DNA of 29,739 nucleotides. Source: a virus. The position numbers were made by a program, and so were the translations under genes. The DNA lies in IMG/VR virus record IMGVR_UViG_3300022752_000281, positions 1-29,739 of that record; one strand, 5' to 3'. The notes under the pieces are model-generated. The model searched no databases, was not told the origin of the DNA, and worked only from the letters and a program-made list of their open reading frames with translations. Positions 8,467 to 19,992 of the stretch are shown here, piece after piece. Numbering within the stretch: the first letter of the stretch is position 1; each line of letters opens with the position of its first letter.

Positions 8467-10542
8467 ATGCCTAGTCGGGAAACTTTTGCTTATCGCCGTA
8501 AAGCTCAGTTAAATGCTGCGCGAGCTGTTGAGGTAACTGAAAAAGAAGATAATTCTATATACGCTAAAGCTGCTAATGACTTCCCTACTTTCTGTGTGCT
8601 TATGGATAAAGCCCCTGCTCCTCATATGATGGAGTGGCACAGGCATTTGATCACAGGAGAAAGCAATAGATACTTGTTAGATATAGCTGGAGCTAATCTT
8701 GATATTCTAAGTCCCCGAGGTAGTGCTAAAAGCACGGTGTTAAACTTGTTTACTGCATGGGCTATAGGTAGACATACGTCAGCCCAGATGCCTCTACAAA
8801 TTATATATTGTTCATATAACATAGCAACAGCTATACCTAAAAGCCGAATTATTAAACAACTGATTGATAACACGACGTTTAAACGTATATTCCCTCGTGT
8901 TCGTTTAAAGCCAGGAATGCAGTCGGATATTGGTTGGGCTGTTGACTTTGAGTATGCCGGAATTCCACGGGTTGGTGATGAAGAATATACGCTCAGAGCT
9001 GCTGGGTTGCGCGGTTCAATTACGTCAAAACGCGCACACTTATGTCTGACGGGTGATACACTAGTTTTAACTGATCAAGGCGAACAGCCAATTGAAAAAA
9101 TTTATGCAAATCCCGAACGCTTTTTAATTGCTGTTAGAAACTCAAGAACTCATCAAATTGATTGGAGCAACGTAGAAGCAGTTACACGACGTTATTCTTC
9201 AGAAATTGTTCACATTAAAACAACAAATAACGGTTATATTTCCGCAACTCCTGAGCACCCTTTTCTTACAACAGATCAAAAGTACGAATGGGCAGGGGAT
9301 ATTAGTACAGGGCAAACCCTTATTGGGGTAACTTTAGATGAAAAATTAAATAAAAATAATTTTAACTCAAAAGAATTTTACGAATGTCAAATTCAATACA
9401 GAGGAGAAAAAGTCCTTTGCAAAAAACGAAACAAGTCAAACAGTTCCGAGTGCTCATCACCAGATCATAAACAGAGCTGGGAGATCTTAACCGTTTCCGG
9501 AGTTGAAAGAGTTAGCAACGGAACGCACATCGTTTATGACCTTGAACTAGATCATACAGATCATAATTTTATTGCAAATGGGTTTGTTGTAAGCAATTGT
9601 TTAGTCGATGACCCTATAAAATCTTCGGCGGAACTACGTAATCCGACTATTCGGGAAGAAATGAATAATAATTGGTCGTCTGTTATATCTCCGATTATTT
9701 TTGATGGCGGTCGGGCTATTTGTTTAGGTACTCGATTCCATCCTTTAGATATTCATAAAACTATGTTCTCCCCTTCTAAGGGTTGGAATCAAGTTTCTCA
9801 AGAAGCCCTAACGTACAACAATAAAGGAGAGCCGGTAAGCTATTGGCCTGAGCAGTGGTCTGTTGATTATTTATTACAGACGAAAGAACTAGATCCTGTT
9901 GCATTTGCGTTCCAGTACCAACAACAACCTGTCTTAACGTCGGACCTAATCGTGTCTCCCGATCTTCTTGTCCGGGCTGACGTTGAGATGGAGTTTGATT
10001 CCTTAGCTGTAGGAATTGATTTGTCTGCTAGTGCTAAAGAAACTAGCGACTACACGGCATTTGTTTTGGGTGGACGACTTAAAGATAAGTACTACATTAT
10101 TGATGCACACCAATGCCGTTCCGTAGGAAATTTAGAGAAGATAGATTTACTGTGTGAGATGTTACTTGAATGGGGAATTTTAACTTTTGAGAACGACACG
10201 TATTTTCCGACTTATTCGACGATCACGCTGGTAGTTGAGTCAGTTGCTTATCAAGCAAGCTTGTCCGCTGATTTAAAACGGGTACTTTTAAATGACCGTG
10301 GATTGTCAAATATCCATATACATGAGGTATCCGGTTTTAGAGGAGATAAAGTTGCCCGTTTCCGAGGAACCTTGGGATTGCTTGAAAACAGAAAGATAAC
10401 ATTTAATCGGTATCGTAAATTTGATGCGTTATTTGAGCAGATTATAAATGTGGGATCTACGTCCCATGACGACTTACTCGATGCTTATACACACTTAATA
10501 ACCTTTTTACAAAGGCGGGGCAGTTTTTCGATAGAGTACTAA
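8467..10542 (+). CDS. terL: Terminase large subunit, interrupted by an intein
   Basis: This is the DNA-packaging motor ATPase and nuclease. The host protein is about 506 residues after removal of a 185-residue intein (residues 193-377), a normal terminase length. The Walker A-like loop is SPRGSAKST (82-90). Walker B is CLVDDP (378-383), which becomes continuous with KRAHL only after intein removal. The C-terminal RNase H-like nuclease shows Asp518 in GIDLSAS, Glu591 in VVES and the acidic pair in HDDLLDAY (668-669). The ATG is 1 base after one arm of the inverted repeat. It acts at the portal vertex with the protein encoded at 13563. No small terminase was recognised here. Confidence 0.93.
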   Translation: MPSRETFAYRRKAQLNAARAVEVTEKEDNSIYAKAANDFPTFCVLMDKAPAPHMMEWHRHLITGESNRYLLDIAGANLDILSPRGSAKSTVLNLFTAWAIGRHTSAQMPLQIIYCSYNIATAIPKSRIIKQLIDNTTFKRIFPRVRLKPGMQSDIGWAVDFEYAGIPRVGDEEYTLRAAGLRGSITSKRAHLCLTGDTLVLTDQGEQPIEKIYANPERFLIAVRNSRTHQIDWSNVEAVTRRYSSEIVHIKTTNNGYISATPEHPFLTTDQKYEWAGDISTGQTLIGVTLDEKLNKNNFNSKEFYECQIQYRGEKVLCKKRNKSNSSECSSPDHKQSWEILTVSGVERVSNGTHIVYDLELDHTDHNFIANGFVVSNCLVDDPIKSSAELRNPTIREEMNNNWSSVISPIIFDGGRAICLGTRFHPLDIHKTMFSPSKGWNQVSQEALTYNNKGEPVSYWPEQWSVDYLLQTKELDPVAFAFQYQQQPVLTSDLIVSPDLLVRADVEMEFDSLAVGIDLSASAKETSDYTAFVLGGRLKDKYYIIDAHQCRSVGNLEKIDLLCEMLLEWGILTFENDTYFPTYSTITLVVESVAYQASLSADLKRVLLNDRGLSNIHIHEVSGFRGDKVARFRGTLGLLENRKITFNRYRKFDALFEQIINVGSTSHDDLLDAYTHLITFLQRRGSFSIEY
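9043..9597 (+). other. Mini-intein within the terminase
   Basis: The in-frame insertion starts at Cys193 (CLTGDTLVLT, block A) and ends at Asn377 before Cys378 (+1 residue). Block B is ATPEHPFLT, with the conserved His. Block F/G reads VYDLELDHTDHNFIANGFVVSN. It splits the terminase at Walker B, a typical intein position. At 185 residues there is no room for a homing endonuclease. The expected site of that domain is an AT-rich, Asn/Lys-rich linker at about bases 9335-9480, which looks like a remnant. The penultimate residue is Ser instead of the usual His. Protein splicing should join AHL to CLVDDP. Confidence 0.92.
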
Positions 10543-13562: not shown

Positions 13563-15800
13563 ATGGCCGACACGCTCGGGGTTCGTCAAAGATTTCAAGA
13601 AATTCTTGAAGCTTCGCGGACCCAGGATAGATCTAAGCAAGCAACTACGTTAGTCGTACTTAGTCATATTCAGCAGATGACTCTGTTGATGATTAAGAAA
13701 GGGCTTACTTTTTATTGCGAACAAGACACGTATCGGTCTAGGTCAAGATTCATTGACGATCTTCTTACCTTAAATAAATTTGATATTAGACTTCCGTCTA
13801 TTATTAGGAACTTTTTAATTGATGGTTGCGGCCTCTTTTACTTTCGCCCTGACCCTAAGTTAAAGTATCAAATTTATTTTTTCCCCAAGGATCAATATCG
13901 TGTGTATCACGATGTAAATGGGAATATTGAAGAAGTTGTTATTATTTATAAATATAAAGTTCGTAACTCCAATCTTGGATTACCTTCTGAAATCTCAGGT
14001 CTGAACGAAAGGTACGTCCGGATTTCTATAACAGATTCAAAGATTGCCGAATTTGAATCCAACACAGAACTAAGTTTTGATTTAGAACCCGGCGGTGTGA
14101 TGACTGCCAATAATTCCAGGGAAAATACCCTAGGTTTTATTCCCGCCGTGGAGGTTTTAAACAAACCTGACAGTAGCGGCACCTCTGGTGAAGGTGAGTT
14201 TGAACCTTTTATGGAGCAGATTGTTTTACACGATACGCTTATTTCTAATATTGCTAAAAATATCGAGTTCTTTGGTAATCCGACTCTGATCAGTTCCCGC
14301 CCACGTAGTGATCTGGTCGAAGCTAATGACTCTGATCGCACTTTTCGTCCGACCATCAGTAGCCAGAGTGGGTTTGGTGGTAGGGACACTCCCTCAACTC
14401 GTGTTAGTGAACCTTTTGGTTCGCATGGAATGATCGGCGGTTTGCGTGTTCCTCGGATTATTGCAAATGTCGAACCTTCCGATCGGGTTGGTTACATGAC
14501 ACCAGACCCCGTTAACGGGGATATGAATCGTTGGGCACTTCTTCTTCGGGAAGAACTTCGTACAGCTCTTGGCGGTGTGGATGAGATTTCGGTTTCTGCC
14601 GGGGCTACTGCGACAGAAATTAAAGGTCTTATGGGTCGGGCTCAGGCCACGGCTCTTAGAAAAAATAAAAGTTTCCTTACTTATGGTTTCTGTAAGTTAC
14701 TGGAAATGGTGTTGTTCCACCAAGAACAGATGTTTAAAAAGAGCTTTGCTCTAGTTATTAAGCTTAAACCAGTAAAACCTGCTGCTGACGGTTCTGCAGA
14801 GGAAGCCACTAGGTTCTCATCAGATCAACGAAAGTTTGATGCAAAGCTGGATCAGTTGATGCGGGAGGCTTTATCTACGTCTTCCGTTCCTGAAGGTGTG
14901 TTTGGTCTACCTCCTGATGGGGATCGGACAGTTTCGTACCGATATCAAGGGGATGTTTACGAAGATACTGCATACGATATAAATCAAAAATCTATTGTTG
15001 TTCGGAACTTACAAGAGCTAGGTGTTGACAGCGTGGAAGCGTTGCGATACCTGTTCCCAGATAAGACTGATACCGAACGTGAGGAAATGCTAAAAGGATT
15101 TCCTTTTAGAATGATTCAACAAACTCAAAGCGCATTCCAACAATTTTTAGTATTATTATCACAGATGTTGCAAACGCCACATCCACTTGCTCCGGATCAG
15201 CCACTAGGTGCAGATCCAAGATTAAATTTGACGCCCTTGTTATATAGGACGTTCGACCACCTTGCGCAAGAACTAACCTACTCGGGTAGCTATGAGCCAG
15301 CAGATCCAAGCTTCAATCCCGAGCCCGGTAGCCCCGGCGGTAGCAGCCCCCCAGGCGGCGCCCTCGGACCAGGGCTCAACCGCCTACCCCCAGTGGGTGG
15401 CGCAAACCAGTACCCCGGCGGTAGCTTCGGTACCTACGCTCCAAGCGCCGTCGCAGGCGCAACAGGGTACGGGCCTTTCTACCAGCAACCAGTACAACCA
15501 GTATCCGTCCGCGTCCTCCCCGTCGAATCCGTGGGAAGCAGCGATGGGCAGCCTGGAGCGGGTGGTCTCACGAATGTCCCCCTTCCCCAGCCAAACAGCA
15601 CAGTCTCCGCAGTACCAAACAACGGCGCAGGCTACTCCTCAGTACAGTCCGAATTTACAGGGCCAACCCTGGGCTTATCAAGCCCCTACGGCAGCGCCGA
15701 CCTACTCCAACAACGCATCTACGACCCAAACTTCCTCACCGACTTCTACGGTAGGACAACAAACCCCCCAGCTAAGCGCCGCAACCGTTCAGGTCGTTAA
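13563..15800 (+). CDS. Portal protein
   Basis: This 745-residue protein forms the dodecameric ring at the head vertex, through which terminase packages DNA. The recognisable portal features are an N-terminal helical part, a mixed alpha/beta middle (FYFRPDPKLKYQIYFFPKDQY), and the stem/crown-like RTALGGVDEISVSAGATATEIKGLMGRAQA near 335-365. Size and gene order (terminase, portal, scaffold, capsid) fit N4-type portals. The last 169 residues (from about 577) are a Pro/Gly/Ser/Gln-rich tail encoded entirely inside the overlapping scaffold frame. The core before this tail is about 575 residues. The tail ends in a basic KRRNRSGR. Confidence 0.87.
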   Translation: MADTLGVRQRFQEILEASRTQDRSKQATTLVVLSHIQQMTLLMIKKGLTFYCEQDTYRSRSRFIDDLLTLNKFDIRLPSIIRNFLIDGCGLFYFRPDPKLKYQIYFFPKDQYRVYHDVNGNIEEVVIIYKYKVRNSNLGLPSEISGLNERYVRISITDSKIAEFESNTELSFDLEPGGVMTANNSRENTLGFIPAVEVLNKPDSSGTSGEGEFEPFMEQIVLHDTLISNIAKNIEFFGNPTLISSRPRSDLVEANDSDRTFRPTISSQSGFGGRDTPSTRVSEPFGSHGMIGGLRVPRIIANVEPSDRVGYMTPDPVNGDMNRWALLLREELRTALGGVDEISVSAGATATEIKGLMGRAQATALRKNKSFLTYGFCKLLEMVLFHQEQMFKKSFALVIKLKPVKPAADGSAEEATRFSSDQRKFDAKLDQLMREALSTSSVPEGVFGLPPDGDRTVSYRYQGDVYEDTAYDINQKSIVVRNLQELGVDSVEALRYLFPDKTDTEREEMLKGFPFRMIQQTQSAFQQFLVLLSQMLQTPHPLAPDQPLGADPRLNLTPLLYRTFDHLAQELTYSGSYEPADPSFNPEPGSPGGSSPPGGALGPGLNRLPPVGGANQYPGGSFGTYAPSAVAGATGYGPFYQQPVQPVSVRVLPVESVGSSDGQPGAGGLTNVPLPQPNSTVSAVPNNGAGYSSVQSEFTGPTLGLSSPYGSADLLQQRIYDPNFLTDFYGRTTNPPAKRRNRSGR

Positions 15801-16235: not shown

Positions 16236-16276
16236 AACCCTAGTTCGCTTAAAACACGAATTAGGGTTATTTTTTT
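16236..16276 (+). terminator. Rho-independent terminator after the scaffold gene
   Basis: The arms AACCCTA-G-TTCG and CGAA-T-TAGGGTT form a long stem around the loop CTTAAAACA, followed by ATTTTTTT. The upstream side is A-rich (AATAAAAAATA), so it might also work on the other strand. It separates the portal/scaffold unit from the small genes before the capsid gene and would let capsid genes be transcribed separately. Confidence 0.9.
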
Positions 16277-16300
16277 ATACCGCAACTTGCAAGTTTTGTT

Positions 16301-17611: not shown

Positions 17612-19992
17612 GCGCTCATAGGCTGAGAGGCTTATGCAGTATCGGGTGAATTGCTGGAACCCTTCCCTTTAGCACAGCTAAATCAGGCTTATCCTGAGAA
17701 CCTTGACAATTAGAGCCGACTTATGTCGGAAGAATTTACAGCTTAGGGTGTGCGCCTAAGTTGAGGGAATCAGCAGCCAAGCCGCATGGGAACGTGCGGA
17801 AGGTTCAGAGACTAGATTGTACGATCCAGAACGGATTATGAGAATCCACGAGCGCCCGACACCCTACCTATGAGGGTGATGATATAGTCCGAGCTGCATC
17901 AATGGTAAAGATGCAGAACTAGGGGATAAAGAGCCTCTAGGATAACACAACTGCGACAATGATTTTCCGAAGTTGCTCGGCGCAGAACTCTACCGGCCTT
18001 AAAAACATCTGTCTAACCCTCTAACAGACAGATCGTTGTGTGGGGCGCCCACGGTGAAAGCTGTGGGGCAATACCCGTCAAATTCGGTGAACCCTTGAGG
18101 ATGGGAATACCGAGCCAAGCCCTTTATGGGAAGGTGTAGAGCCTGTACGGCGGGCTCCGTAGCATGTAGAATCATGCCGGAGAAGATACAGGGAGTGATT
18201 GGATGACAAAGGTAACTAGAGATGAAGTGCGTTCTTTTCTCATCGGAACTTTGTTAGGAGATTGCTACGCTTCGCCAACTTATCAATGGCAGTGGAGTAA
18301 TACCGAACAAAATTATGTTGAGTGGAAAGCAAGTTTTATCCGAAGATACCTTGGTGCGTCTTGCCAAGTTTTAGAGTCTAAAGACTCTACTTGTGCAAAC
18401 GGTTTTATGTACCGTTTTGCGTTGTGTTCAAACAAAGGTCGTCTTCGTATTTACCGTAATTGGTTTTATGCTAAAGACGGCAAAAAACACATAACAAAAC
18501 GTATTCGTCATTTTGACCATCCTTTGGGACTTGCGGTCTTAATTCTTGACCAAGGTTCTTGTAGGGGCGGACTCACAAAAGACTATAAAACCGGCAATAC
18601 GTACTACCGAAAACCTACGGTACGCATTCACTTAAACGCTTATCCCGAAGAGGAACTTGTTCTTTTTCAACAGGCGCTTAAGACTAACTTTGATTTAACC
18701 ACGACTCTTCAAAAAAAGAGATCCGGTAAATCTGATGGTCTTATAGATGTGTATTTTGGGACAACGGAAACGCAAAAACTTTGGACGCTCATTAAACCTT
18801 GGGTACCTGATTTAGTTTTTGCTCGTAAAAAATTTCATCCACTCATCATCCAGACTACAAACGCTAAATACGTACAACGTCAGAGAGGCTGTGCGTTAGA
18901 TTAGCGGCAGTGAAAACTGTAGTAGTAGAGCACCCGGCTTACGTTGTAGAGATGGCTGCGGAACCTGTGGTTGTTCATGATTTCTCAAAACAACCAGGGC
19001 AAACCGTGCAACTTGATCGTTACAGGTTCTGGGGAAACCCAGGAAGTAAGGAGTCACGTGAACGTACTGCAGAGCAAACCATCGGTACTGCTAGCAGCCG
19101 TAACATCGTTAAGGATAAGGTACTTGTAACTCTTCGTGAGTATACAGGTCCTGCAGATCCTAACGATCCTACACAGGCTAGCACTTTCAAGATCGCACGT
19201 GAGACACTGATTACCGCTCAGCGTTTGCTGCTCGATACCGGTAACCTTACTGCGTTCCACCAATCCATTGGTAGCCTCACCCTTTTGGATGACTATCGCC
19301 GGTGGCGCGATCGGGTGTTCATCAACGAACTCCTGAAAGCTGTTTCTAAGGGCAAGTCTTCAGATACCCAAGGTGGTTACTACTACCCTGGCGATTTGGC
19401 TGTTGGTTCTTTGACCTACACCAACTCTGAGCAAGCCAAGTTTGACGTTAAGGATGACCTTCTTCGGGTGGTCAAGTCCCTGCGTAAGCGTAATACCCCC
19501 ACCTACCAAGATGGGTTCTACCGCTGCGTTTGCGATCCTACCTTCCTGATGCACCTGCGTCAGAACTCTGACTTCCGTGAGGTGGCTCGCTACCCCGGCA
19601 ACGGTCAGATCAATCCCCTCATGTCAGCTATGCAGCCTAATGCTGCTATCTACATGGGTCAAGGTTTCGGCCAAGCTACTTTCGTGGCTGGCGAACCCAT
19701 CATGCCTACTGGTTTCGTTTTTGAAGGTGTGCGATTCTTTGAATCCACCAACATGCCTTCTCAAACTGCTGCGGCAACTATCGGTGGTACTGCGTCTACT
19801 TACGACAGTGCAATCGGTATGTTCTTCGGTCCTCAGGCTGTTGGTGTTGGCATCGGTGGCAATAATGCCCAAGTGTTGCTCAACAACAACGACGATTTCA
19901 GCCGTTTCATCATGATGATTTGGAGCCTGTACGCAGGTTTTGAACTTCTGAACGCTGACTTCGTGTCTGTTGCCTACTCATTCAACGTTTGA
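17609..19992 (+). CDS. Major capsid protein, gene split by two group I introns
   Basis: The body (18907-19992) is an N4-gp56-like major capsid protein: DRYRFWGNPGSKESRE, TLREYTGP, YRRWRDRVFINELLK, a P-loop-free FYRCVCDPTFLMHLRQNS and GVRFFESTNMP are in the family order. No ribosome site precedes the apparent GTG at 18910, and the frame there runs straight out of an intron. I propose exon 1 = 17609-17624 (16 bases), exon 2 = 17956-17999 (44 bases) and exon 3 from about 18907. Exons 1 and 2 encode MALIGYNDFPKLLGAELYRP, in frame, joined to about 362 residues, for about 382 in total. Exon edges could shift by a few bases. It forms the capsid shell with the scaffold. Confidence 0.8.
17625..17955 (+). 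ncRNA. Group I intron 1 (no ORF)
   Basis: The core is clear. P1 pairs exon CATAGGCT (17617-17624) with guide GGCTTATG (17629-17636), closing with the required U.G. ATCAGCAGCCAAGCC (P4-like) leads to the P6 hairpin CCGCA/TGCGG (17782-17799). AAGGTTCAGAGACTA (17800-17814) is the classic P7 region, matched by GATATAGTCC (17881-17890). P8 is GGATT/AATCC (17833-17847). P9 hairpins CTGCATC/GATGCAG and CTAGGGG/CCTCTAG follow. The 3' end is put at G17955 because only this choice, or G17961, keeps the capsid frame. About 331 bases, IA-like, with no endonuclease gene. Confidence 0.87.
18000..18906 (+). ncRNA. Group I intron 2 with endonuclease gene
   Basis: A second, unrelated group I core follows after a 44-base exon. 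TACCGAGCCAAGCCC with GGGAAGGTGTAGAG gives P4-P6. P7 pairs CCTGTA (18142-18147) with TACAGG (18187-18192). P8 is CTCCG/CGGAG (18155-18182) enclosing GCATG/CATGC. Upstream hairpins are ATCTGTCT/AGACAGAT (18007-18033) and CCCAC/GTGGG (18048-18067). The P1 guide may be GGGC at 18043-18046, pairing with exon GCCT (17996-17999). The endonuclease gene lies after P7, in the P9 region. The 5' edge is 17999/18000 or 18000/18001; the 3' edge is a G between 18904 and 18912. Confidence 0.82.
18203..18904 (+). CDS. LAGLIDADG homing endonuclease in intron 2
   Basis: The 233-residue product carries two LAGLIDADG-type motifs, FLIGTLLGDC (12-21) and LGLAVLILDQGS (around 108-119), so it should act as a monomer with two half-sites. 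The Lys/Arg-rich beta regions between them fit the DNA-binding saddle, and GKSDGLIDVYFGTTETQKLWTLIKPWV is typical of the second domain. It would cut intron-less capsid genes and spread the intron. The Shine-Dalgarno GGGAG (18191-18195) overlaps the 3' strand of intron helix P7. In both motifs the acidic metal-binding residue is retained (D20, D117). It stops two to eight bases before exon 3. Confidence 0.92.
   Translation: MTKVTRDEVRSFLIGTLLGDCYASPTYQWQWSNTEQNYVEWKASFIRRYLGASCQVLESKDSTCANGFMYRFALCSNKGRLRIYRNWFYAKDGKKHITKRIRHFDHPLGLAVLILDQGSCRGGLTKDYKTGNTYYRKPTVRIHLNAYPEEELVLFQQALKTNFDLTTTLQKKRSGKSDGLIDVYFGTTETQKLWTLIKPWVPDLVFARKKFHPLIIQTTNAKYVQRQRGCALD

Follow-up and report, generated by a model that had tools for sequence, protein, structure and literature searches.

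In the phages Lambda (C/Nu3) and Mu (I/Z), the protease and scaffold genes are nested in frame, so that their products have protein sequence in common, and the Rz/Rz1 pair of Lambda provides an example of lysis genes that are nested out of frame. Most of the long out-of-frame overlaps on record are those of small viruses, and the compactness of the genomes is the explanation given for them. Terminal out-of-frame overlaps are an established kind (PMC8227390), and larger viruses reportedly contain overlaps less often (PMC2992710). In phiX174 and other small viruses the 3′ end of one gene overlies the 5′ end of the gene after it, and the dual-coded ends are rich in disorder (PMC8227390, PMC2992710).

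The locus described here lies in the window (i.e. the whole stretch of 29,739 nucleotides that was analysed, IMG/VR record IMGVR_UViG_3300022752_000281) and resembles each of these systems in part. As in Lambda C/Nu3 and Mu I/Z, the start of a putative scaffold gene is found inside an upstream head gene, but the two frames, and the two proteins, differ. As in Lambda Rz/Rz1, an out-of-frame dual-coded pair is found in a tailed dsDNA phage, but Rz and Rz1 are lysis genes, shorter and fully nested, whereas here a terminal overlap of approximately 500 nt connects head genes. The arrangement of overlapping ends and their disorder-rich composition recall phiX174 and the other small viruses, from which the present dsDNA phages differ in size (approx. 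79 kb in S-EIV1); an overlap of some 500 nt that is kept lineage-wide in phages of this size is poorly explained by saving of space. The order of the genes is that of the connector (gene 8), scaffold (gene 9) and capsid (gene 10) genes of T7 and P-SSP7, and the putative scaffold is similar in length to theirs; however, a gap of 99 nt separates connector and scaffold genes in T7, and a single nucleotide is shared in P-SSP7, as opposed to 509 nt here. No description of the present overlap was found in the open-licence papers that were searched.

The window belongs to the lineage of Synechococcus phage S-EIV1, with which it shares the portal gene and the gene that follows. Indeed, the sole match among 50,697 phage records was KJ410740 (Synechococcus phage S-EIVl, the S-EIV1 of the literature, a freshwater isolate of 79,178 bp), the portals sharing 40.8% identity across 99% of the query. 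S-EIV1 is counted among the short-tailed cyanophages (PMC7156551) and marine relatives have been reported (PMC5332604). From IMG/VR, GTDB genomes, the S-EIV1 isolate and the window's own record, 409 loci were gathered, 387 of which were complete enough in the overlap region to be judged. In a supported tree of the portal core these fall into six clades, freshwater and marine, namely p1 (the window's group), p2 (the S-EIV1 group), p3, m1, m2 and m3, with portal-core identities between clades of approximately 0.44–0.59, except for the close marine pair m2/m3. Some contigs of the lineage (L164–L171) were found within metagenome-assembled genomes labelled Euryarchaeota, Rhodobacteraceae, Crocinitomicaceae and Blastopirellula, and are probably mis-binned phage DNA.

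The features of the locus are collected in table 1. The initial annotation had described a 509-base overlap of portal and scaffold genes with both frames open, and its coordinates proved to be exact, both ORFs lying on the + strand in a +1 relation. Its remark that the overlap is richer in C and G than its flanks is borne out by the GC content, the mean of the clade values being approximately 0.62 for the overlap, 0.46 for the portal core and 0.54 for that stretch of the second gene which lies outside the overlap, as is that on Pro/Gly/Ser/Gln-rich tails, the portal tail (approx. 170 residues) being rich in Gly, Pro and Ser and the N-terminus of the putative scaffold in Gln, Ser, Pro, Ala and Thr. 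The portal core had been proposed to end near residue 576, and the alignment places the end of the conserved core at residues 576–586 or thereabouts; the tail is extra sequence. In the window, the conserved core comprises residues 1 to approximately 576 and the overlapped tail residues 577 to 745 or so, ending in the basic motif KRRNRSGR, while residues 1–169 of the putative scaffold are dual-coded.

Table 1. Position of the overlapping genes and associated features in the window.
Feature	Position	Strand	Basis
Probable portal (head-to-tail connector) gene, 745 aa	13563..15800	+	matches to phrog_20475 and phrog_64; core alignment
Putative scaffold gene, 306 aa	15292..16212	+	frame and start region common to all relatives
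Very probable dual-coding overlap, 509 nt, +1 frame relation	15292..15800	+	purifying selection in both frames
TAA in scaffold frame, 15 nt ahead of ATG	15274..15276	+	
ATG start of scaffold frame	15292..15294	+	position identical in 80/80 window-clade contigs
Major capsid protein gene	18910..19992	+	phrog_1357, E=1.5e-23

The identity of the first protein as a portal can be held with good confidence. Its ORF matches phrog_20475 (virion structural, E=8e-158) and, more weakly, phrog_64 (portal, E=2.4e-9), and Pfam Head-tail_con (PF12236) matches it below cut-off, the last two being matches of the T7 type; no meaningful sequence match to it was obtained in the PDB. The second protein found no family match in PHROGs, Pfam or the PDB and no detectable similarity to gp9 of T7 or P-SSP7. 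Its gene sits between those of the portal and the major capsid protein, and the order is identical in another of the loci (L163); the order portal, putative scaffold, capsid is set by the position of the last of these genes. The AlphaFold2 model of the second protein contains helices at residues 80–95, 163–226 and 266–305, predicted with low confidence (mean pLDDT 42): residues 1–169 are predicted to be disordered apart from the helix 80–95 (NPWEAAMGSLERVVS), and the C-terminal part to be helical. On the basis of gene order and this helical/disordered build, the second protein is likely to be the capsid scaffold. The model of the portal is also poor (mean pLDDT 39.6), core included, so that the low values, although they fit disorder in the tails, prove nothing.

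An overlap of at least 452 nt is open in all of the 387 usable relatives, with the +1 frame relation kept without exception, and no contig of the six clades lacks it. A homologous portal ending before the position corresponding to 15292, or a homologous scaffold starting after that corresponding to 15800, either of which the initial annotation had considered fatal to its reading, occurs in none of the 387. Conserved elements reach across the clades on both sides, i.e. the motifs P-x-PG and G-x-x-D-(L/I/F) and a basic C-terminus in the portal tail (the latter present in examples from every group), and NP(W/Y)xxA, inside the short predicted helix, in the N-terminus of the putative scaffold. The annotation of the isolate can also be revised in this light: the KJ410740 record places the start of the second gene at 59863 (133 aa), but the conserved frame starts at 59287, and with the 192 codons between 59287 and 59862 the annotated gene lacks its dual-coded part. 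The late start is an annotation choice, because in this isolate, as in the relatives, the frame is open and conserved ahead of the annotated start; the second gene of the only isolate, S-EIV1, has therefore been annotated 192 codons too short.

How the second protein would be started can be judged from the region at the head of its frame. In nearly all relatives an in-frame stop lies 3–15 nt ahead of the usual start, which is an ATG 3 nt into the open frame in p2, p3 and most of m2 and m3, a GTG 6 nt into it in m1 and an ATG 15 nt into it in the window's group; in a few m2/m3 contigs the first start is found 6–48 nt into the open frame. The sequence AAGGAG precedes the start in all members of p2 and m1, and AAGAG in p3. 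Programmed ribosomal frameshifting out of the portal frame, by which a fusion of portal core and scaffold would be made and no separately started protein, would be permitted anywhere within the shared open stretch by its length and the +1 relation, and the window's clade, in which no Shine-Dalgarno sequence was found ahead of the scaffold ATG, is in keeping with it; most genes in the window are likewise without one. However, the position of the start shifts between clades and yet is never lost. The start directly behind an in-frame stop and the ribosome-binding sequence in two groups disfavour frameshifting as the main route, and it is considered improbable; independent initiation is favoured on these features of the start region.

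A rival reading is that a single frame is a genuine gene and that the other is open by chance, the overlap being GC-rich and low in stops. When codons were redrawn with the amino acids of the portal tail fixed, the scaffold frame acquired 0.3–6 stops (approx. 2–4 in most representatives) and was open with a probability of 0–0.09 in all representatives but one (0.003 in the window), the exception, L250, being open in 72% of the draws. With so few stops expected, openness in a single genome is weak evidence for the scaffold frame. With the amino acids of the putative scaffold fixed instead, an unconstrained portal frame would hold 5–14 stops and be open with a probability of 0–0.0025, so that its openness speaks strongly for the portal tail.

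A comparison of substitutions by codon position in both frames, which the initial annotation had recommended, reveals purifying selection on both encoded proteins. On entering the overlap, third-position divergence falls in the portal frame from 0.53 to 0.23 (window group) and from 0.46 to 0.15 (S-EIV1 group), and in the scaffold frame from 0.51 to 0.23 and from 0.42 to 0.25, respectively. Synonymous differences corrected for amino acid changes amount, relative to expectation, to 0.38 (p1), 0.28 (p2) and 0.45 (m1) in the portal tail and to 0.44, 0.53 and 0.64, respectively, in the scaffold N-terminus. Changes were further assigned to four classes according to their effect in both frames (silent, S, or amino-acid-changing, N, the portal letter first) in 94 independent close pairs, taken within groups and with equal overlap length and 86–99% identity, and rates were scaled to that of synonymous change in the core of the portal. 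Doubly silent changes occurred at a rate of 0.92 [0.76–1.11] (SS), those changing the scaffold only at 0.154 [0.134–0.175] (SN), those changing the portal only at 0.251 [0.219–0.287] (NS) and those changing both at 0.058 [0.046–0.072] (NN); on the same scale, amino-acid-changing substitutions in the portal core proceed at 0.060. In the m3 group (7 pairs) all four classes were higher (SS 2.38) with their order unchanged. Scaffold-silent changes that stop the portal were observed twice, as compared with 262.5 expected under neutrality and 65.8 at the NS rate, and portal-silent changes that stop the scaffold 5.5 times, as compared with 83 expected. Since the pairs are close and drawn within groups, the four-class rates describe recent evolution, deep conservation being established separately by the cross-clade motifs and the openness of both frames.

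Amino acid change is, therefore, suppressed independently in each frame and both frames are open in 387 of 387 contigs: the four-class rates rule out a spurious ORF, and a frame open by chance retains a negligible probability. The freedom of the doubly silent sites (SS 0.92 of the core synonymous rate) indicates that each frame adds its own constraint and that it is the two codes, rather than the bases as such, that are constrained. It is also what rules out a non-coding RNA or DNA element as the source of synonymous constraint, which is likewise scarcely credible. Such an element would find some room in the S-EIV1-like clade, where synonymous divergence is already lowered to 0.3–0.7 of expectation over the approximately 90 codons that precede the overlap (for instance at about 7470–7735 of L081) and where another element may lie, but in the marine m1 clade the constraint begins close to the overlap; in the window's clade the upstream reduction is weak. 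A hidden third ORF in this upstream region of the S-EIV1 clade was looked for, and no sense frame was open there, one antisense frame having few stops. A segregation of constraint, one frame being conserved where the other is free, was not seen, the conservation of the two frames being positively, if weakly to moderately, correlated (r 0.21–0.51).

Taken across the S-EIV1 lineage, the compared sequences demonstrate both frames, a start region proper to the second frame and selection on the two proteins, and the 509 bases are very probably a true dual-coding region, not an artefact of annotation, that is old and has been kept throughout the lineage. The overlap connects two genes of head morphogenesis in aquatic cyanobacterial viruses of a widespread lineage, and the hundreds of environmental sequences available make it a good system in which to follow two proteins evolving on one sequence.

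As to how the overlap arose, the same gene order without it in T7 and P-SSP7 suggests that it is derived, although the sequences of these phages are too distant to polarise it. Either of two single steps could have produced it. By loss of its stop codon, for which one mutation is enough, the portal may have grown its tail over an older scaffold N-terminus, a course of events to which we would give about an even chance. It is consistent with the shorter connectors of T7 and P-SSP7 (522–536 aa), with the length of their scaffolds (265–307 aa), which is about that of the full second ORF, and with the somewhat stronger constraint on the scaffold frame (SN 0.15, NS 0.25), but codon usage is ambiguous, neither frame being clearly the better fit, and every known relative already carries the overlap. 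Alternatively, and with roughly one chance in three by our reckoning, the scaffold start may have shifted in the 5′ direction, into a portal tail that was already present, a gain of a start being likewise a single step. The location of the conserved helical part of the scaffold outside the overlap agrees with this course, but the portal tail has no match beyond the lineage and, here again, every known relative carries the overlap. We lean slightly towards the loss of the portal stop.

The best-supported scheme for the working of the locus is as follows. Beyond its conserved core, the portal gene would be read on into the 5′ part of the gene behind it, yielding a flexible tail of approximately 170 residues, rich in Gly, Pro and Ser and with a basic cluster at its end. 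The next gene, most likely that of the capsid scaffold, would be initiated within the portal gene, from a start codon of its own, and would read the shared bases in the +1 frame as a disordered, Gln/Pro/Ser/Ala-rich N-terminal half carrying one short helix with an NPW motif. Internal initiation may allow the second protein to be made in an amount different from that of the portal. By analogy with other portals, the tail would point into the capsid; it may, then, lie inside the procapsid and possibly contact scaffold or DNA, a role inside the capsid with either partner being conceivable but rather unlikely. Shared coding would, at the same time, keep both segments inherited together. More doubtful still is the idea that portal tail and scaffold N-terminus bind each other in the procapsid, their inheritance being tied by the shared bases; if it were true, the scaffold would always fit the portal around which it nucleates, despite the mosaic recombination of phages.

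The surroundings of the two genes offer some further observations. Directly 3′ of the scaffold stop, at 16237–16277, a hairpin (AACCCTAGTTCG / CGAATTAGGGTT) followed by a run of T resembles a terminator; it was read from the sequence, the pattern scan not having listed it. An ORF for a LAGLIDADG endonuclease (18203–18904) is located between the putative scaffold and major capsid genes. Upstream, a glycosyltransferase family 17 gene (PF04724, 12534–13376) adjoins the portal gene, and the ORF of the terminase large subunit (8467–10542) contains an intein splicing domain (PF14890, residues 200–377).
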